This document shows positions 34,196 to 43,417 of a stretch of DNA of 64,000 nt, piece by piece. The stretch is from positions 62,001-126,000 of the forward strand of contig NC_019964.1 of the NCBI RefSeq assembly GCF_000328525.1. The letters run 5' to 3'. The position numbers and the translations under genes are program-made. The first letter of the stretch is position 1. The number at the start of each line of letters is the position of its first letter. This stretch comes from Halovivax ruber XH-70. Its GTDB lineage: Archaea; Halobacteriota; Halobacteria; Halobacteriales; Natrialbaceae. The notes under the pieces are model-generated. The model saw nothing but the letters and a program-made list of their open reading frames with translations, did not search any database and was not told the DNA's origin.

Positions 34196-36145
34196 TCATC
34201 GCGACCGCGCCGACTCGTCGTCATCGGCAGTCGCGTCTAAATCGGCCCCGGCGCGTTCGACGAGATCAGCGCCATATGCTTGCCGGGCGTCCTCGACCGA
34301 GAGCAGCCCATCGGCGAGATCGCGTCGGAGCGCAGCCGGGTCGCGGTCGGCTGGGTCGCCGTACCCGCCGCCACCCGGCGTCCGGATGCTGACGACGTCG
34401 CCGGCGTCGAGGCGTCGCGTGCACTTCGCCGGGAGCGCCTCGGCGTGTTCGTCGGGCTCGTCGACGTCGTCCGCGTCGCCCTGACGGGCCGCGGCGCTGT
34501 ACAGTACGTCCTCACCAGGAGCACCGTTTTCGCCGCCCGCGACGCCGTAGGGGGCGTGCGTTCGGCGGTCGGCGAGCAGACTGAACGCCGCCCCGGTCGA
34601 CCCTGTGGCCCGGACGCGGATGTCTCGCCGAAGGCCGAGGCCGCCACGGAACTCGCCTGCACCGCCGGTATCGGGCCGGTAGGCGTAGCGCTCGACGGAG
34701 AGCGGGTAGGCCGTTTCCAGCACCTCCGCCGGCGTGTTCATCGTGTTCGACATGTGGACGTGGACGCCATCCATCCCGTCGCCGTTCGCGTGCGCGCCGA
34801 AACCGCCTCCGCCGGTCTCGTAGAAGGCGTAGGGGTCGTCTGTCCGCGGGTCGACGCCGCCGAACGTGACGTTGTTCATCGTCCCCTGGCCCGCCGCGAG
34901 CGCGCGTTCCGGCGCGATTTCGGCGAGGGCGCCCAGGACGACGTCGGTCACGCGCTGGGAGGTCTCCAGGTTGCCACCGACGACCGCGGCCGGCGGTTCG
35001 GCGTCGACGACGGAACCCTCGGGCGTCTCGATGTCGATCGGCCGGTACGCGCCCGCGTTCGCGGGAATCTCGGGATCGGTCACGCAGCGCACCGCGTAGT
35101 ACGTCGCCGACGCCGTGACCGCGAAGACGGCGTTGATCGGTCCCGCGGTCTGGGCGTCCGTCCCGTCGAAGTCGACGGTGAGCGCGTCGCCGTCGATCGT
35201 CACGGTCGCCTCGATCCGGACGTCCTCGCTGGCGCGACCGTCGTCGTCCAGCACGTCGGCGTAGCCGTAGGTGCCGTCGGGCAGGTCAGCGATGGCCGCG
35301 CGCATCCGTTTTTCGGCGTAGTCCTGGACGGCATCGACGGCGGTTCGCAGGGTGTCGATGCCGTGGTCGGCCGCGAGCTCTAACAGTCGCGTCCGGCCGG
35401 TCTCGTTGGCCGCGTGCTGGGCGCGCAGGTCGCCCCGGCGCTCGTCTGGCGTGCGCACGTTCGCGAGGAGCAGGTCCACGACGTCGTCGACGACGTCGCC
35501 GCCGTCGTAGAGCTTCACCGGCGGGATCCGCAGCCCTTCCTGGTAGATCTCCGTCGAGTCGGCCGCGACGCTGCCCGCCCGCGAGCCGCCGATGTCGGCG
35601 TGGTGGGCGCGGTTGGCCGCGAAGCCAAGGAGTTCCAGGTCGTCCGTGACGGGTTCGCCGCCAGCACTTTCTCCGGCCGAATCGGCCGCGACCGCGCCGC
35701 CTGTCCCCCCGTCGTCGACGAAGATCGGCGTCACGAGCGTGAGGTCGGGCAGGTGGGCGCCGCCGCGGAACGGGTCGTTGAGGACGACAGCGTCGCCCGG
35801 AGAGAGCGTTTCCGGCGGGAACCGCTCCAGCGCGGCCGCGACGGAGAAGGGCATCGCGCCGAGGTGGACGGGCATCGTCTCGGCCTGACTCAGCATTTCG
35901 CCGTCGGCGTCGAACAGCGCGCACGAGCAGTCCTTGCGTTCCGTGATGTTCGGCGAGTAGCCCGTCCGGACCAGGTTCGCGTTCATCTCCTCGGCCACGG
36001 CCGCGAACGCGTTGCGAAGGACTTCTAGCGTGATCGGGTCGATGTCGTCGCTATCTGGGGCGCCATCCCGTTCGTCGTCACCGTCGTTCCCTTCGCCGTC
36101 GGTGGCCGCGCCACCGGCCACCCTCGGATCGGGTTCGTCGCTCAC
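34196..36145 (-). CDS. hyuB: Hydantoinase B / oxoprolinase subunit
   Basis: 649 residues. With HyuA it forms an ATP-dependent enzyme that opens hydantoin or 5-oxoproline rings. The family core starts at DPITLEVLRNAFAAVAEEMNANLVRTGYSPNI, preceded by a 35-residue acidic leader. Further segments are LNDPFRGGAHLPDLTLV, NRAHHADIGG, FDGTDAQTAGPINAVFAV and GGGGYGDPADRDP at the C-terminus. The GTG start at 36145 overlaps the hyuA stop by four bases, with GGAGGTGG just ahead as a ribosome-binding site, so it is translationally coupled. The exact substrate (N-methylhydantoin, oxoproline or another) cannot be read from sequence. Confidence 0.92.
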   Translation of the reverse strand: MSDEPDPRVAGGAATDGEGNDGDDERDGAPDSDDIDPITLEVLRNAFAAVAEEMNANLVRTGYSPNITERKDCSCALFDADGEMLSQAETMPVHLGAMPFSVAAALERFPPETLSPGDAVVLNDPFRGGAHLPDLTLVTPIFVDDGGTGGAVAADSAGESAGGEPVTDDLELLGFAANRAHHADIGGSRAGSVAADSTEIYQEGLRIPPVKLYDGGDVVDDVVDLLLANVRTPDERRGDLRAQHAANETGRTRLLELAADHGIDTLRTAVDAVQDYAEKRMRAAIADLPDGTYGYADVLDDDGRASEDVRIEATVTIDGDALTVDFDGTDAQTAGPINAVFAVTASATYYAVRCVTDPEIPANAGAYRPIDIETPEGSVVDAEPPAAVVGGNLETSQRVTDVVLGALAEIAPERALAAGQGTMNNVTFGGVDPRTDDPYAFYETGGGGFGAHANGDGMDGVHVHMSNTMNTPAEVLETAYPLSVERYAYRPDTGGAGEFRGGLGLRRDIRVRATGSTGAAFSLLADRRTHAPYGVAGGENGAPGEDVLYSAAARQGDADDVDEPDEHAEALPAKCTRRLDAGDVVSIRTPGGGGYGDPADRDPAALRRDLADGLLSVEDARQAYGADLVERAGADLDATADDDESARSR

Positions 36146-38283
36146 GTTGCCACCTCCATGACGATCGTCCCGTACTCGTCGACGGTCGCGCGCCAACCGG
36201 GGCGGACGACCACCGTGCTCTCCGGTCCTTCGACGATGGCGGGGCCGGTGACGTCGCTTCCCACGCTGAGCGCGGGGCGGTCGTACACCGGTGTCTCGCG
36301 GTTCGTTCCGTCGAAGACGACCGATCGCGTCCCGCGGATCGCCTCGTCCGCGTCCGCACCGGTTCCCTCGGCCGCCGAGAGCGTCGGCGGTTCGACGACG
36401 GCCCGGACGCGCGCCCGGACGGTGACCAGTTCGACGGGTTCGTCGGGCGAGGCGTGGCCGTAGCGTCGCTCGTGGGCCGCGTGGAACGCCTCGACGGCGT
36501 CGGTGAGCGTCTCGTCCGTGACCGGCCCCTCGGGCAGGTCGACCGCGAGATCGAACGACTGGCCGGCGTAGCGCAGGTCGACCGATCGCTCGACGAGGAC
36601 CGTGTCGGTTGTAGTGCCCAGCTGCGCTCGTCCCTCGTCTTCGAAGCCGGCGAGAGCGGTTTCGATCGCGCCCGGGTCGACGGCCGCGAGCGGGCGAACC
36701 ATCGACGCGCTTCGCTCGACGAGCCGATCACTGACCAGCAACCCGAGCGCCGAGAGCACGCCCGCCGTCCGGGGGACGAGTACTCGCGGGATGGACAGGG
36801 ACTCGGCGAGCGCCGCCGCGTGGGCCGGTCCCGCCCCACCGTAGGCGACCAGCCCGAAGTCGCGCGGATCGTGGCCCGCTTCGACGCTGACGACCCTGAG
36901 CGCTCGCTCCATGCTCGCGTTCGCGACGTCGAGGATGCCCTCGGCGGCCTCGGCGACCGAGAGGCCGAGCGGCTCGGCGACGTGTTCGGCCACCGCGTCT
37001 TCGACGGCGTCGCGGTCGATGCCGCCTCGCTCGCCGTCACCGCCACTCGCTTCGGCGCCGTTCGCACTCTCGGACGGGCCGCCTGCCTCGTCCAGGAAGC
37101 GCGAGGGATCGAGCCGACCGCACAGGACCTGCGCGTCGGTCACCGTCGGCTGCGTGCCGCCGCGGCCGTAGCAGACCGGGCCCGGTTTCGCACCGGCCGA
37201 TCGGGGGCCGACGCGGAGGGCACCGCCGTCGTCGACCCACGCGATCGAGCCGCCGCCCGCGCCGATGGTGTGGACGTCGATCGACGGCACGGCGACTGGA
37301 TACTCGCCGATCTCGAGGCCGGTCGTGACCGTCGGGTCGCCGTCTCTGACCAGCGAGACGTCGCAGGAGGTGCCGCCCATGTCCATCGTGATGACGTCGC
37401 CCTCGCCGCGGAGCCCGGCGACGTGGGCCGCCCCGCGGACACCCGCTGCGGGCCCGGAGAGCAGGGTGTTGACCGGCCGCGTCCGGGCGCGATCGGCGCC
37501 GATCGTCCCGCCGTTCGACTGCATGATGCGGAGGGCGGGCTCGATCCCGCGATCGGCGACGGCCTCCTCCAACCGCCCGACGTAGGCGTCCATGACGGGC
37601 TTGAGCGCCGCGTTCAGCGCCGTCACCAGCGTCCGCTCGTACTCTCTGATCTCGGGGCGGACGTCGCTCGACAGCGAGAGGGAGACCGGCGAATCGCCGC
37701 TCTCGTCGACGGTATCGCCGTCACCGCCGAGCTCGTCTTCGAGAATCTCCGCGACGCGGCGCTCGTGGGCGTCGTTCTCGAACGCAAAGAGCAGCGAGAC
37801 GGCGATGCTCTCGATTTCCGCGGGGAGCTCGTCGGCGACCGCGCGGACGGACGCCTCGTCGAGCGCCGTCCGCACCTCGCCACGCTCGTCGAGGCGCTCG
37901 GTCACCTCGAATCGGCGGCGTCGGGGGACGACCGGCTCCGGTTTCGACACGGTGTAGTCGTAGATGTCGGGGCGGTCCTGTCGCCCGATCGCCAACGCGT
38001 CGCGAAAGCCCTCGGTCGTCACGAGCGCCACGTCGGCCCAGTCGCGTTCGAGGACGGCGTTCGTCGCCACGGTCGTCCCGTGGGCCAGATCGGCGACGTC
38101 GGCGACGGCGTAGCCGGCGGCGTCGCGGCTGAGTTCGAGGCCGTCGACGACGCCCTCGTCCGGCGAAGCTGGCGTCGACGGCGTCTTCGTGACGGTGAGT
38201 TCGCCGTCGCGAACCGCCACGACGTCGGTGAACGTCCCGCCGACGTCGACGCCGATTCGGACGCCGGGCGATGACTCTGTCAT
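36142..38283 (-). CDS. hyuA: Hydantoinase A / oxoprolinase subunit
   Basis: 713 residues. The N-terminus VRIGVDVGGTFTDVVAVRDG is the ATP-binding phosphate loop of the acetate kinase/HSP70-like fold, and LAHGTTVATNAVLERDWADVALVTTEGFRD is the hydantoinase A signature. The middle part includes QSNGGTIGADRARTRPVNTLLSGPAAGV and TMDMGGTSCDVSLV. It forms a complex with HyuB, the next gene. Cytoplasmic. Start ATG 38283 is the family start; an ATG nine codons upstream is less likely. A sulfatase gene lies upstream on the same strand, 104 bases away; co-transcription is possible. Confidence 0.93.
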   Translation of the reverse strand: MTESSPGVRIGVDVGGTFTDVVAVRDGELTVTKTPSTPASPDEGVVDGLELSRDAAGYAVADVADLAHGTTVATNAVLERDWADVALVTTEGFRDALAIGRQDRPDIYDYTVSKPEPVVPRRRRFEVTERLDERGEVRTALDEASVRAVADELPAEIESIAVSLLFAFENDAHERRVAEILEDELGGDGDTVDESGDSPVSLSLSSDVRPEIREYERTLVTALNAALKPVMDAYVGRLEEAVADRGIEPALRIMQSNGGTIGADRARTRPVNTLLSGPAAGVRGAAHVAGLRGEGDVITMDMGGTSCDVSLVRDGDPTVTTGLEIGEYPVAVPSIDVHTIGAGGGSIAWVDDGGALRVGPRSAGAKPGPVCYGRGGTQPTVTDAQVLCGRLDPSRFLDEAGGPSESANGAEASGGDGERGGIDRDAVEDAVAEHVAEPLGLSVAEAAEGILDVANASMERALRVVSVEAGHDPRDFGLVAYGGAGPAHAAALAESLSIPRVLVPRTAGVLSALGLLVSDRLVERSASMVRPLAAVDPGAIETALAGFEDEGRAQLGTTTDTVLVERSVDLRYAGQSFDLAVDLPEGPVTDETLTDAVEAFHAAHERRYGHASPDEPVELVTVRARVRAVVEPPTLSAAEGTGADADEAIRGTRSVVFDGTNRETPVYDRPALSVGSDVTGPAIVEGPESTVVVRPGWRATVDEYGTIVMEVAT

Positions 38284-38387
38284 AGCACTCGCTTGCAGCG
38301 ACCGGGTCATAATGGTTGGCGAGGGGTGCTGAGGGGGCGGCTGTGCGAGTCACTCCGAGAACGCGGCTGGGCCGATGTCTCGAACCG

Positions 38388-39821
38388 CTACGAGAACGTC
38401 TTCGGCACCCACTTGCGGTACGGGTCGTCGGTCGCGTCCATCCAGGCGACGAGCCGGTCGGCCAGTTCGCCGCGGACGTCGGCGTAGTCCGGGTGATCGA
38501 TCAGGTTCTGGAGCTGGGCCGGGTCGGCCTCGCGGTCGTAGAGTTCGTTCACGTCGGGGCCGTTGTAGACGAACGTGTACCGCTCCGTGCGGACCAGTCG
38601 CTGGGTGTAGAGGCCGAACTCCTCGCCGGAGTACTGGCCGAAGGTGGAGTCGGGCCAGGCGTGCGGTCGCCGGCCGGAGAGTAGCGGGACGAGACTTCGG
38701 GCGTGGAACGATTCGGGGACAGGGACGTCGGCGAGTTCGCAGAACGTCGCCGCGAGGTCGTGTACGTGGACGGGGGCCTCGCAGGTCGTCCCCGGCTCGA
38801 TCTCGCCGGGCCAGCGCACCTGCAGCGGGATCCGGTAGGTGTCGTCGTACATCAGCGGGCCCTTGTTGAACTGGCGGTGCCCGCCGACGAAGTCGCCGTG
38901 ATCTGCCGCGTGGACGACGACGGTGTCGTCGGCGAGTCCGTGATCGTCGAGTGCGTCTATGACGCGACCGAACTCGTCGTCGATGAGCGAGACGAACCCC
39001 CAGTACTTTGCAAGCACCTCGCGCCAGGTCTCCCGGTCGAAGTCCGCGACGCCGCGGTAGCCGAGGAACTGCTCGTGTGCGCGGGGTTTCCCGTCGAACG
39101 TCTCGGCGTAACTCGCCGGCAGGGAGACGTCGGCGGGGTCGTACATCGAGGCGTAGGGCTCCGGGATCACGTACGGGTGGTGCGGGCCGTAGAAATCCGC
39201 CCGGTGGAAGAACGGCCGGCCGGCGTCGGAATGAGCGCCGATCGCCTCGATCGTTCGGTCGGCGAGAAAGTGTGCTCGCGTCGCCTCGACGGGGACCGGT
39301 GTCGTCGCCGCGACGAGCGTGCCGTCCTCGCCGGCGGTGTAGATCGCGTCCGAGAACTCGATCTCACCCAACGGGAGGCCGCGTTCCTCGCGGTAGCGTG
39401 CGAAGGCGTCGTCCAGCGCGTCGTCGTGGTGGTCGTCACTCCCGCCGCGGTAGGCGAAGCCGAATTTCTCGGGCGTCGCCTCGTGCCCGACGTGCCACTT
39501 CCCGGTGTAGGTGAGGGCGTATCCCGCCTCCGCGAGTTGCTGGGAGAAGGTCGGGATCTCGGGATCCAGATTCGACCGGATCGCGTCGCCCTCGTGGTGG
39601 TTGTTCAGCATCCCGTGGCCGTGGGGAAACTGGCCGGTGAGCAGCGAGGCCCGTGCACTCGTACAGATGCTCGTCGGTGTCGTCGCGTTCGTAAAGCGCA
39701 TTCCCGCCGCGGCGAGGCGGTCCATCGCGGGCGTCTCGACGGGCGGTCCCTCGGGCGCGGAGACGTCGTAGCGCTCCTGGTCGGTGAGCGCGAGCAGGAT
39801 GTTCGGCGGCGCGTCGGCCAT
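38388..39821 (-). CDS. Sulfatase with a Cys-type formylglycine motif
   Basis: 477 residues, no signal peptide. NILLALTDQERYD and VVHAADHGDFVGGH supply metal ligands, and YTGKWHVGHE is the conserved Lys/His segment. The nucleophile motif is SICTSARASLLTG, with Cys in the position that becomes formylglycine (C-x-S/P-x-R), so it should be a true arylsulfatase-type enzyme if a maturase exists elsewhere in the genome; none is seen in this window. It lies upstream of hyuA on the same strand. The substrate is unknown. Confidence 0.9.
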   Translation of the reverse strand: MADAPPNILLALTDQERYDVSAPEGPPVETPAMDRLAAAGMRFTNATTPTSICTSARASLLTGQFPHGHGMLNNHHEGDAIRSNLDPEIPTFSQQLAEAGYALTYTGKWHVGHEATPEKFGFAYRGGSDDHHDDALDDAFARYREERGLPLGEIEFSDAIYTAGEDGTLVAATTPVPVEATRAHFLADRTIEAIGAHSDAGRPFFHRADFYGPHHPYVIPEPYASMYDPADVSLPASYAETFDGKPRAHEQFLGYRGVADFDRETWREVLAKYWGFVSLIDDEFGRVIDALDDHGLADDTVVVHAADHGDFVGGHRQFNKGPLMYDDTYRIPLQVRWPGEIEPGTTCEAPVHVHDLAATFCELADVPVPESFHARSLVPLLSGRRPHAWPDSTFGQYSGEEFGLYTQRLVRTERYTFVYNGPDVNELYDREADPAQLQNLIDHPDYADVRGELADRLVAWMDATDDPYRKWVPKTFS

Positions 39822-40029
39822 CAGGCGGCGTACACCGACGGCGGTGATAATGGTGGGGTGCGAGCGAACTGCGGGCCGTCGCGATCGAACCGTTCGAATC
39901 TGGCAGCCTCGATCGACGTCCACTGCGGGCGGAAGGATTAGGATGGCTCGGTCAGATTGCTCGGCTAAAATGCCTGTCCCAGTACACCCCTCGACTGACC
40001 GCCTTCGGATCGCTATGGGGTGGTAAGCC

Positions 40030-40218
40030 GTGACTACTGCCTACTGTGCCGTCTGTGACTGGTCCCGTGAGACGGGATCGGAGACGACTCGATCCGACCT
40101 GAACCGTGCGATGATCGACCACCACGTCGAGACGGGTCACACGCCGATCGAGACGGACGAAGTGATATTGGACGAAAACCAAATCGGTGACGGCGGCATC
40201 GATGTTGCAGGCCAGTGA
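40030..40218 (+). CDS. Small C2H2-like zinc-finger protein
   Basis: 62 residues starting at GTG. CAVCDWS near the N-terminus and DHHVETGH about 23 residues later give a possible Cys2-His2 zinc site, a layout seen in many small haloarchaeal proteins. The C-terminal 25 residues are acidic. Function unknown. The base composition is still like the chromosome; the AT-rich island begins directly after its stop. Confidence 0.6.
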   Translation: MTTAYCAVCDWSRETGSETTRSDLNRAMIDHHVETGHTPIETDEVILDENQIGDGGIDVAGQ

Positions 40219-40452
40219 ATTGCTGTTTTATCTGAACGCTACAAAAACAAGAATCGGTGGAGTGATTTTTGCTTACCTGGGTTGGTGAAACGCACCACGT
40301 GCCCCATCATTCTTGCAATATCAAAATCCAATGAATATGCTTCCTTCAAATGGGAATGGTAAATTCTGATCTTGGATTGAGGTTGGATAATATCGAAAAA
40401 CCACCCATACATTCCTCCACCCAAATTATATAATTTCTAACCAAATCAAAAA

Positions 40453-40459
40453 TATTATA
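40453..40459 (+). promoter_or_regulatory. TATA box of the halocin-like gene
   Basis: TATTATA lies 25-31 bases before the ATG at 40484, the usual distance for a leaderless haloarchaeal transcript. Confidence 0.6.
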
Positions 40460-40483
40460 CACTGTCAAAATCCAATCTGTATT

Positions 40484-41494
40484 ATGGCGGATGAATACAA
40501 AGGTCGCAGTGAGATGAACAGAAGGGATATGTTAAAGAAAGGGGCTGCCGGTGCTGGTGCTTTCGGATTCGCACCAACATCTATTACTTGGGAATCTGCC
40601 GATAGTGACGAATTTGAGCGTTTGCGGGCGGCACCTGAAGTTCAATCGATCCTTTCCGAATTAAAACTTGATTCACTGCCAGAAAAAGCCGAAAAGACCG
40701 AACTAAAGGTCACTGAATCAACTACATATTCTGCAACGAGAATTGAAATTGACTTTGGAACGTTGTATTTTGGTGACTTTGGCGGCGAAACAAGTGCCGG
40801 ATTTGAGTTTTCTGGATCTAACTATAGAAATATTAGATCAGAAAAATACAGGAAAATCCCCTCCTCTGTAGATGCGTGGCTTATCGGCCTAGATAACGAC
40901 ACTATCTTCATACGAACGGCTACGGATGAGGAAAAATCGCCCATATTGTCACAGATTCCTGTGAATGAATCCGACGATACTTCAGTATATACGGGGTCAA
41001 ATATAAGCGGGTTTCGAGTCGATGTCGTCCAGCGTCCGCCAGAACTAAATGAGGGCCTTCGAACCAATAAATCCCAGATAGGCTTGGAGGCCATTCAGGA
41101 TACTGAGCTCAAAACATATCATGTGAACGCTGGCGTTTCGAATTGTAGTACTGAATCAGTACCCGTATCTTCGCTTCATATCTCAGCGGATGATGTCTCA
41201 GTTGAGCGTATCACTACACAAGGAATTGTTGACGATGTCACAGACTTGTTTGGTGATTTAGGTGCAGTAGCGGGTGATTGTGGTAACCCAATTATTGGTT
41301 GTATCTCCGCAATCGGTGTGAGTATATTTGGCTGTGGAAGATGTGTTCCAGTCTGTGCATCCAGTCCTACAGGTGTTGGTGCTGTTCTCTGTATCGGCTG
41401 CGTGTACCTGTTTTGCGATTGGCTACTTTCTGGAATCGCCTGTGTTGGGCCTGGTGGAGCTATGGATTGTCTCGAAACGCACGGCTATGTCTAA
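40484..41494 (+). CDS. Halocin C8-like precursor protein with Tat signal
   Basis: 336 residues. Residues 11-35 form a Tat signal (NRRDMLKKGAAGAGAFGFAP). The middle ~220 residues are soluble and beta-rich (SALTEL-like start LRAAPEVQSILSELKLD; IEIDFGTLYFGDFGG), the place of the HalI immunity domain in the halocin C8 precursor. The last ~80 residues are Gly-rich and hydrophobic and hold ten cysteines, from GDCGNPIIGC to AMDCLETHGYV. Halocin C8 also has ten cysteines in its 76-residue mature peptide. By analogy the protein is exported folded through Tat and cut to release the peptide. The family match is from memory and motif layout. The codon use is AT-rich and foreign. A two-helix membrane protein gene follows three bases later. 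Confidence 0.72.
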   Translation: MADEYKGRSEMNRRDMLKKGAAGAGAFGFAPTSITWESADSDEFERLRAAPEVQSILSELKLDSLPEKAEKTELKVTESTTYSATRIEIDFGTLYFGDFGGETSAGFEFSGSNYRNIRSEKYRKIPSSVDAWLIGLDNDTIFIRTATDEEKSPILSQIPVNESDDTSVYTGSNISGFRVDVVQRPPELNEGLRTNKSQIGLEAIQDTELKTYHVNAGVSNCSTESVPVSSLHISADDVSVERITTQGIVDDVTDLFGDLGAVAGDCGNPIIGCISAIGVSIFGCGRCVPVCASSPTGVGAVLCIGCVYLFCDWLLSGIACVGPGGAMDCLETHGYV

Positions 41495-41497
41495 TCC

Positions 41498-41707
41498 ATG
41501 CCCCAAATTGCTGGTCTAACTCCGCGCCGACTTATGCTACTCTTCGTTGTCTCTGGTATTGCAGCGGTGAGCCAAACAGCATTACTCATTCAGGGAGAAG
41601 GTGGATTCAATTCGGTAATACTTCTCATCGCATTTATCCTTATCGCGCTCGCTTGTTTCTGGCCGTTGTGGAAACATCTGCGCCACCAAACTGACGGCCG
41701 CACGTGA
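41498..41707 (+). CDS. Two-helix membrane protein next to the halocin-like gene
   Basis: 69 residues with two hydrophobic helices (LMLLFVVSGIAAVSQTALLI and VILLIAFILIALACFWPLW) and a basic C-terminus. The start lies three bases after the stop of the halocin-like gene, so the two form one transcript. Small membrane proteins next to halocin or bacteriocin genes often give immunity or help export. In the described halocin C8 locus a membrane protein gene also follows the precursor. The role here is inferred from position only; the sequence matches no family I know. Confidence 0.65.
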   Translation: MPQIAGLTPRRLMLLFVVSGIAAVSQTALLIQGEGGFNSVILLIAFILIALACFWPLWKHLRHQTDGRT

Positions 41708-41738
41708 GCCTTCTATCTCCTATTGGTATGAACCATCT

Positions 41739-41757
41739 CCGAACGCCTTCCGTTCGG
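41739..41757. terminator. Inverted repeat between the halocin pair and hisS
   Basis: CCGAACG-CCTTC-CGTTCGG forms a 7-bp stem in the short gap between the convergent gene at 41498 and hisS. It could affect 3' ends of either transcript. There is no T-run, so its role as a terminator is uncertain. Confidence 0.35.
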
Positions 41758-41762
41758 CAGCC

Positions 41763-43085
41763 TCACTCGAAGTCGTCGATGCTCGGCCGCTCGCGCTCGC
41801 CGGGGAAGTCGTCGACGGGCGCGGTGACCTGGTCGCCGCTACCCATATCCTTGATCGTCACCTCGTCGTTTGCGAGGTCCTGTTCGCCGACGATGACGAC
41901 CGTCTCGGCGTTGATCGAGTCCGCGTAGTTCATCTGGGCGCCAAAGGACCGCCCGGCGACGTCGCTCTCGACGACGTGGCCGGCTGCCCGCAGCTCGCGG
42001 GTGATCCGGGAAGCCGTGGGGCGGGTGTCGCCGACCTGCAGGACGTAGTATTCGGTCGCGAGTTCTTCGTCGGGCCAGACGCCCGCGCGCTGACAGAGCA
42101 ACGAGAGCGTGGCGTAGCCGGGCGCGACGCCGACCGCGGGCGTTGGTTGGCCGCCGTAGGACTCGATCAGGTCGTCGTAACGGCCGCCGCCGAAGATGGA
42201 ACGGGAGACCTCGCCGGTCGAGTCGAAGCACTCGAAGACGACGCCGGTGTAGTAGTCGAGGCCGCGGGCTGTGTCCAGCGAGACGGTACAGTACTCGCGA
42301 GCGCCGAAGTCCTCCGCCGCGGCGAGGACGTTCTGAAGGTTCGAGACGGCCTCGGTCACCCGCTCTGCGTCGGTGTGGGCGAGGACGGCGTCGAGGTCGT
42401 TTCGTTCGATCAGCGAAGCGAACTCCTCGGCCTGGTCGCCCGTGAGACCGGCGTTTTCCAGCAGCCTCAGGTACTCGGCACGGTCGACCTTCTCGGACTT
42501 GTCGACCGCGCGGATGCCGGCCTCGACGTCGATGTCGTCGGCTGCGTCCCCTGCCGTTTCTGCGGCGTACTCTTCGAAGAGCCCGCCGAGGATGTCGCGG
42601 TGAGAGATCCGGAAGTCGAAGTGTTCGCCGGTGAGGCCGAGACTCGTAAGCGCGTCGGCCGCCCAGGCGAGGATCTCGGCGTCGGCTTCCGGTTCGCTGG
42701 AGCCGAAGATGTCGACGTTCGTCTGGTAGAACTCGCGCTGGCGGCCCTGCTGGACCTGCTCGTAGCGCCAGAAGGGCCGCGTCGAGAACCACTTGATCGG
42801 CTTCGAGAGCGCCTGCTGTTTCGCGACGACGAGCCGGGCGACGGTCGGCGTGAGCTCCGGCACCATCGTGACGTGCCGGCCGCCCTGATCCTCGAAGGCG
42901 TACAGCTCCTCGACGATGTCGTCACCGCTCTTGTCCGTCCAGATTTCGGCGCGTTCGAGTGCCGGCGTCCCGATCTCGCGGAAGCCGTAGCGCCGGGCGG
43001 TGCCTTCGAGTGTGTCGATCGTCTCCCGACGGGCGCCCATCTCCTCCGGATAGAAATCGCGGAAGCCCTTGATGCGGTCGTACAT
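41763..43085 (-). CDS. hisS: Histidyl-tRNA synthetase
   Basis: 440 residues, class II. MYDRIKGFRDFYPEEMGARRETI is the family N-terminus. Motif 2 is RPFWRYEQVQQGRQREFYQTNVDIFG; the histidine-binding segment ARGLDYYTGVVFE and motif 3 GGGRYDDLIESYGG follow. An anticodon-binding domain spans residues ~335-425, and the tail is acidic. Cytoplasmic, charges tRNA-His. ATG 43085 is the family start; the open frame extends upstream but the residues are not conserved in type. Confidence 0.96.
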   Translation of the reverse strand: MYDRIKGFRDFYPEEMGARRETIDTLEGTARRYGFREIGTPALERAEIWTDKSGDDIVEELYAFEDQGGRHVTMVPELTPTVARLVVAKQQALSKPIKWFSTRPFWRYEQVQQGRQREFYQTNVDIFGSSEPEADAEILAWAADALTSLGLTGEHFDFRISHRDILGGLFEEYAAETAGDAADDIDVEAGIRAVDKSEKVDRAEYLRLLENAGLTGDQAEEFASLIERNDLDAVLAHTDAERVTEAVSNLQNVLAAAEDFGAREYCTVSLDTARGLDYYTGVVFECFDSTGEVSRSIFGGGRYDDLIESYGGQPTPAVGVAPGYATLSLLCQRAGVWPDEELATEYYVLQVGDTRPTASRITRELRAAGHVVESDVAGRSFGAQMNYADSINAETVVIVGEQDLANDEVTIKDMGSGDQVTAPVDDFPGERERPSIDDFE

Positions 43086-43417
43086 AGCGGCCCGTTCGCG
43101 CGGGGCGTACTTTGATGTGTCCACTCGGATCCGGCCTCGGTTGCCCGTCGAACGATGGTCGAGCACCCGCGGCAACGGCTGCGAACCGTCCGGCGAGGCA
43201 GTGGGCGTTCGATCAGCGAGACAATAGCCGTGGACTGACGGGCGACAGGCGAGACACTGAGGCGTGACTCGCCCAGCCGAACAACCGGTTCGAATCACCA
43301 CTCCTCATTTTCCCGCGACGGGGCCGCTAATTCCAGTCACTCGGCACGATTGGTTCGAACGGTCGGGGCGTGAGCACAGCCCGGAGATTCATTTAGTCCC
43401 GGTTCGAGACACAGTTT
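43086..43417. other. Intergenic region between divergent hisS and sensor kinase genes
   Basis: No gene seen. A TATA-like ATTTAG at 43391-43396 lies about 25 bases before the kinase GTG. The sequence GGTTCGAATC near 43283 looks like a tRNA T-loop, but no tRNA can be folded around it. Confidence 0.5.

Follow-up and report, generated by a model that had tools for sequence, protein, structure and literature searches.

The open reading frame (ORF) at 40484-41494 of the window, the 64,000-nucleotide stretch of Halovivax ruber XH-70 DNA analysed here, very probably codes for a microhalocin precursor that is secreted and belongs to the halocin S8 family, judging from its sequence relationships. Its signal suggests that the precursor would be exported in folded form by the Tat system. 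The C-terminal ~72 residues would form a hydrophobic helical hairpin with a nested ladder of five disulfides, to which the paired loss of cysteines among relatives points. Release of the peptide would come about by extracellular proteolysis in a variable linker near residue 264, to go by the start of the halocin S8 peptide and the subtilases encoded in the genome; nine Peptidase_S8 matches were found there, and some of these proteins could mature the peptide. From the family relation, the released peptide would probably attack the membranes of competing haloarchaea, with self-protection conferred by a 69-aa protein with two transmembrane (TM) segments, by the N-terminal domain still bound to the peptide, or by both. 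Counted against this reading are the identity of only 24% to the nearest characterised relative, the marginal Tat scores, the tension between the 3.6-kDa product of halocin S8 and the ladder, and the absence of the 69-aa ORF from most relatives.

Gene and precursor layout

The 336-aa ORF is intact and open throughout, and the reverse strand opposite it holds many stops. Its product begins with MADEYKGRSEMNRRDMLKK and runs from an RR signal through a weak hydrophobic stretch and a soluble middle of ~230 residues to a Gly-rich, hydrophobic C-terminus with a cluster of ten cysteines (residues 266, 273, 284, 287, 291, 303, 306, 311, 320 and 329); one extra cysteine, at about residue 221, lies outside this cluster. 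The ORF and the residue count thus agree with a sequence-only reading of the stretch, which had described a Tat-type signal, a soluble middle and a C-terminus with ten cysteines, here placed in the last ~72 residues. The features of the locus are as follows.

40030..40218, + strand: 62-aa small ORF, its C-terminus replaced by the insertion (homology to congeners stops at 40160)
40161..41762, no strand: acquired AT-rich islet of ~1.6 kb, without counterpart in four congeneric genomes (G029, G030, G031, G032)
40453..40459, + strand: TATA-like element ~25-31 nt 5' of the ATG (by sequence reading)
40484..41494, + strand: 336-aa predicted precursor of an S8-family microhalocin (ORF, conservation, homology to the S8 precursor)
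40484..40582, + strand: twin-arginine signal, residues 1-33, with NRRDMLKK at 12-19 (TIGR01409 score, RR conservation)
40592..41041, + strand: N-terminal domain, residues 37-186, with an RxATxxE motif at 144-150 (common to the halocin S8 precursor; profile, AlphaFold)
41042..41272, + strand: variable Ser/Asp-rich linker, residues 187-263 (length varies in the alignment; partly low pLDDT)
41273..41491, + strand: predicted effector peptide, residues ~264/265-336, ~7.4 kDa, with putative helical hairpins (paired gain and loss of cysteines)
41498..41707, + strand: two-TM membrane protein of 69 aa and candidate immunity factor, 3 nt past the stop codon of the precursor (same islet, homolog in genome G120, neighbour enrichment)

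For the start of the predicted effector, S231 in the precursor of halocin S8 served as the model, and the linker before the effector is presumed to be protease-accessible. The TATA-like element is compatible with a leaderless transcript.

The Tat model TIGR01409 scores 16.3 bits on the precursor, just under its curated cut-off of 16.7, and PF10518 scores 14.2 bits against a cut-off of 22.7. The RR pair is kept in at least 90% of 25 relatives, and 9-11 of the 25 match Tat models. Searches of Pfam, NCBIfam, PADLOC and PDB sequences with the precursor returned no domain beyond Tat, and among the curated families searched no non-halocin family matched the C-terminus. The sequence-only reading had also proposed structure prediction for the middle and C-terminal parts, and this succeeded for the former only: AlphaFold models of four sequences gave a usable N-domain of two helices and a beta sheet, with pLDDT ~70-85 over most of residues 41-180, whereas the C-terminal peptide was of low confidence, the low-confidence models being all-helical there. 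Foldseek with the predicted models gave nothing at E<=0.001, and thus we make no claim about the fold.

A recently acquired islet

The region of ~40000-41750 has a GC content of 41-50%, with flanks of 66-73%. Genome G029 is collinear with the window (93-95% DNA identity) as far as 40160, then resumes at 41763, with 96 bp between these points; G030 gives the same islet boundaries as G029, and the insert is likewise missing from G031 and G032. The islet contains only the precursor and the 69-aa two-TM ORF. It is flanked by an arylsulfatase-like gene (38388-39923, - strand) and hisS (41763-43301, - strand); in the other four examined genomes of the genus, these two genes are direct neighbours with no insert. 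Inspection of the islet ends revealed no clear direct or target-site repeats. The most likely interpretation is a recently acquired two-gene cassette, peptide maker plus possible protector, whose genes entered together as a small mobile islet; its product is most likely a small antimicrobial peptide with five predicted disulfides. Two overlapping long ORFs near the islet (34196-38310, - strand) have the look of HyuA/HyuB-type hydantoinase/oxoprolinase genes and are unrelated to the precursor.

Family and distribution

By single-sequence search, 23 of the 391 class genomes contain homologs of the precursor; within the family, 15 of 125 genomes do. Profiles of the N-domain (A5) and the C-domain matched in 43 and 26 of the 391 class genomes, respectively. 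Because homologs occur in 23/391 and 43/391 genomes and the ten cysteines are conserved among homologs at 25-35% identity, the ORF is not a product of chance. The distribution is patchy, with several copies in a genome, and includes plasmid-borne relatives and a PHROG member. Scanning genome contigs with five sequences gave as named carriers Natrarchaeobius chitinivorans and Natronolimnohabitans sp. A-GB9; further carriers are a plasmid of Haloferax larsenii NCIM 5678 and, by coordinate match, a plasmid of Natrarchaeobaculum sulfurireducens. The genome of H. ruber XH-70 itself (G000) holds three precursors: the one in the window, a ten-Cys relative with 34% identity to it (G000:C1:2518953-2519966), and an S8-like relative with eight cysteines in the pattern CDQDD...C..C...C....C (G000:C1:938006-938968, - strand; locus L143:2006-2968). 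Relatives examined, including the S8 precursor of Halobacterium sp. GN101, are annotated as hypothetical or lack a curated family match.

Every N-domain in an intact frame precedes a hydrophobic segment rich in cysteines, whose number varies, and this holds even for an 822-aa fusion; N-domains without such a segment are confined to broken frames. No intact homolog was therefore found that keeps the rest of the protein without the cysteines. A 184-aa homolog without cysteines at L014 was considered as a free immunity protein and rejected, given that an in-frame stop parts its N-domain from its own Cys domain. This locus (L014:1405-2280, genome G054) has the stop before an intact ten-Cys domain, followed by a gene for a 4-TM partner protein, and represents a gene that has either decayed or been split. 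In Natronolimnohabitans sp. A-GB9 (L068:4949-6885), two different precursors lie head-to-head, ~75 bp apart.

The phage records and IMG/VR, as searched, held no relative of the precursor. A distant relative, L033, matches phrog_23815 (function not known) over its full length (1.6e-227), and some family members may thus ride on proviruses. Two copies are present at L033 (G367:C1), ~27.8 kb apart.

Relationship to the halocin S8 precursor

Halocin S8 is a real but little-studied archaeal antibiotic, purified as an antimicrobial. An eight-Cys subgroup of the window precursor's family resembles it. The 36-aa sequence that we take to be the S8 peptide was used as a query and has an exact match (100% identity) in four plasmid records of Halobacterium. 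One of these is the GN101 megaplasmid, where the precursor (WP_176705250.1, Halobacterium sp. GN101) is annotated only as 'hypothetical protein'. The S8 precursor is 311 aa long, with the peptide at residues 231-266 followed by a 45-aa tail. On the N-domain profile, which was built from proteins of the window precursor's type (P0001) only, it scores 51.8 bits, compared with a maximum of 8.5 bits for shuffles (2000 submitted). Its best BLAST match within the family has an E of 1.4e-25, and BLASTP against the window precursor alone gives 5e-4. Profile-profile alignment with hhalign reached 99.6% (E 1.7e-23); its 255 columns take in the signal and the N-domain and extend to the Cys peptide. Within it, the RR at residues 13-14 of the window precursor aligns with NRRNVLRK of S8. 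The S8 C-terminus scores 29.8 bits on a profile of eight-Cys relatives and its cysteine register aligns with that of the window precursor, the C1-C4 and C7-C10 framework being common to both.

From the profile score, BLASTP and the profile-profile alignment, the window precursor is therefore filed with halocin S8. By sequence comparison, S8 and not C8 is its closest characterised relative. The central proposal of the sequence-only reading, namely that the C-terminus is a distinct ten-cysteine peptide of a Tat-type microhalocin precursor, is supported.

Nested pairing of the cysteines

The presence of cysteines was compared across 54 C-termini, after removal of three rows that were frameshifted or ambiguously aligned. 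Counted as both, neither or a single member present, the pairs gave 48/6/0 for C3-C8, 49/5/0 for C4-C7, 45/9/0 for C5-C6, 28/25/1 for an optional extra pair and 51/2/1 for C1-C10, with C2-C9 being invariant and hence assigned by elimination. Phi was 1.0 for three of the pairs (C3-C8, C4-C7, C5-C6), and the optional pair and C1-C10 gave 0.96 and 0.81, respectively, while the next-best pair, a non-nested one from outside this set, reached 0.34. Parsimony on a FastTree tree built without the last 60 residues required joint changes numbering 3 for C3-C8, 2 for C4-C7, 4 for C5-C6, 5 for the optional pair and 2 for C1-C10. With 2-5 joint changes per pair on the tree, the pattern does not reflect one inherited event. 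Perfect nesting of this kind is what one would expect of a helical hairpin with rungs, and the ladder predicted from the sequences is fully nested: C266-C329, C273-C320, C284-C311, C287-C306 and C291-C303.

This pattern also bears on whether the product might instead be a Cys-rich secreted protein with a signalling, metal-binding or structural role, and not an antimicrobial. Cys-rich domains can bind metal, and CxxC motifs occur at 284-287 and 303-306. However, the cysteines are lost in nested pairs, as expected of disulfides, rather than in sets of four; the domain is hydrophobic, halocin S8, its homolog, was purified as an antimicrobial, and no significant match to a metal-protein family or PDB sequence was obtained. 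We consider such a role highly improbable, and retain the microhalocin precursor as the preferred reading.

Candidate immunity genes

The 69-aa protein has one clear homolog, in genome G120 (34% identity, E 1.5e-6). At that locus (L175:1501-2114) the homolog stands without a precursor upstream and is followed by a second similar two-TM ORF, so that the locus looks like an orphan immunity array. Among 59 family genes, 26 have a small TM ORF, defined as 50-230 aa with at least two TM segments, next to their 3' end, as do 10 of 90 control genes. The Fisher p of 9e-6 is indicative, as the relatives are not fully independent and the count includes L154, where a broken frame makes the Cys domain of the gene itself look like a separate ORF. 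Sixteen of the 26, L154 among them, are co-directional and 10 convergent; upstream, small TM ORFs occur in 3/59. On the strength of this enrichment (26/59 vs 10/90), small TM genes are regarded as immunity candidates. By these criteria 33 of the 59 loci have no small TM neighbour, and most relatives have no conserved counterpart of the 69-aa ORF. One family of 4-TM partner proteins is encoded beside several distinct loci, L014, L036, L068, L089 and L094, with phmmer E values as low as 1.3e-11. In Halobacterium salinarum KBTZ03, a 247-aa protein with hydrophobic, TM-like segments is encoded ~400 nt after the S8 precursor.

By analogy with HalI of halocin C8, the N-domain is also a candidate immunity factor; the 69-aa protein is at least as good a one, and on the neighbour and homolog data the leading one. 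A narrower variant takes the two genes as a toxin/immunity pair: immunity would then come from the 69-aa protein alone, with the N-domain acting only as an export chaperone or inhibitory pro-domain. Such a pair would suit the location of both ORFs in one islet, 3 nt apart, the enrichment of small TM neighbours at the 3' ends of family genes, and the homolog in G120 that stands without a precursor, as do orphan immunity genes. On the other hand, most relatives have no obvious partner, the control set was a heuristic gene list, and for halocin C8 one gene directs production and immunity, according to the title of Sun et al. (2005) as cited in PMC12893001. We rate this variant a little below an even chance, and prefer the broader reading in which the 69-aa protein, the N-domain or both could protect the producer. 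A 4-TM family of ~120-132 aa is also encoded directly 3' of C8-type precursors (L038, L039, L044, L045, L055, L056), a recurrence that contrasts with the single-gene description of C8.

Novelty and use

The sequence variant of the window precursor was in none of the libraries searched. No paper joining it to S8 was found in the literature covered; Makarova et al. (2019; mBio e00715-19), which to judge from its title may list relatives, fell outside that scope. Antimicrobial precursors of this general kind are already known, and within the same literature the sequence variant is new. Placement with S8 provides a searchable profile, with matches in 43/391 class genomes, a cysteine pairing predicted without a structure, and named immunity candidates. 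To our knowledge, few halocins have a known gene. The family supplies gene candidates for two that are without an assigned gene in the literature covered, R1 of GN101 and HA3 of Haloferax larsenii.

Comparison with known systems

Halocin S8, described by Price and Shand (2000; cited in PMC11509114), has a precursor with the same RR signal, homologous N-domain, linker and Cys-rich hydrophobic C-terminus, and its peptide starts two residues before the first cysteine. The two share ~24% identity where aligned. S8 has eight cysteines, without the C5-C6 rung, and a short inter-helix loop, whereas the window precursor has ten cysteines and a TGVGA loop. The reported mature product of S8 is also only 36 aa, at 3.6 kDa (PMC8699383, PMC11509114), with a computed mass of 3581 Da for the 36-mer. 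This 36-mer holds only C1-C4, with the predicted ladder partners in the 45-aa tail; either the ladder was cut, in the loop, and measured in reduced form, or S8 pairs differently. Halobacterium sp. GN101 is listed as the producer of halocin R1 (PMC11509114). The exact S8 peptide is encoded in this strain at L190:2311-3246 (NZ_EU080936.1), and R1 has a mass of 3.8 kDa; halocins R1 and S8 may be one molecule.

Haloferax larsenii NCIM 5678 is a listed producer of halocin HA3, with a reported mass of 13 kDa (PMC11509114). Its plasmid encodes a full-length relative with ten cysteines (WP_258303480.1; L003:7983-8864, NZ_CP078064.1; 25% identity over 99% of the query). This is a possible HA3 gene, although 13 kDa is unlike a peptide of 6-7 kDa. 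HapP (HFX_0892) of Haloferax mediterranei is likened to the window precursor by description, being secreted as a precursor that a serine protease outside the cell activates (PMC12893001). Its active part, however, is the N-terminus, with alpha-helical motifs, and its synergistic antagonism was for this reason set aside as a model.

Halocin C8 shares with the window precursor a Tat signal, a single precursor for export and peptide, ten cysteines and a similar predicted peptide mass (7.4 kDa). The sequence-only reading had accordingly proposed a specific relationship, which was not borne out. TIGR04449 (halocin_C8_dom) gave no hit to the precursor at E<=1, nor any in the whole genome; as a positive control, the sequence that we take to be the C8 peptide, which is encoded identically at L040, scored 61.5 bits. 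Profile-profile comparison with 28 C8-type precursors reached 7% for the C-domain, 0.8% for the N-domain and 45% for the whole. No homology was detectable between the middle part and HalI, or in the 76-aa peptide, and the cysteine spacing differs. Among the proteins examined, none joins a P0001 N-domain to a C8-type C-terminus.

It is thus unlikely that the window precursor is of the C8 type, with a HalI-like immunity part and a C8-like peptide, despite the common layout of Tat signal, ~200-residue middle and ten-Cys C-terminus of ~7.4 kDa, the 45% for full-length profiles, and a similar pattern of cysteine loss. In 25 non-redundant C8-type peptides the variable cysteines fall in nested pairs (both/neither/single, C4-C7 20/5/0 and C1-C10 24/1/0); these two pairs are co-lost in both sets, and the other C8 pairs vary too little. 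With the precursor placed in the S8 family, all that is left of the likeness to C8 is a common architecture and the nested cysteine pairs found in both; these pairs suggest a common topology, but not necessarily common descent. Tentatively, and with more doubt than confidence, S8-type and C8-type halocins could be regarded as two branches of one haloarchaeal class of bacteriocins with nested disulfide ladders, carried on small mobile cassettes and often accompanied by a dedicated small membrane immunity protein, in which case the purified 36-residue halocin S8 would be no more than the first half of the ladder molecule made in nature.
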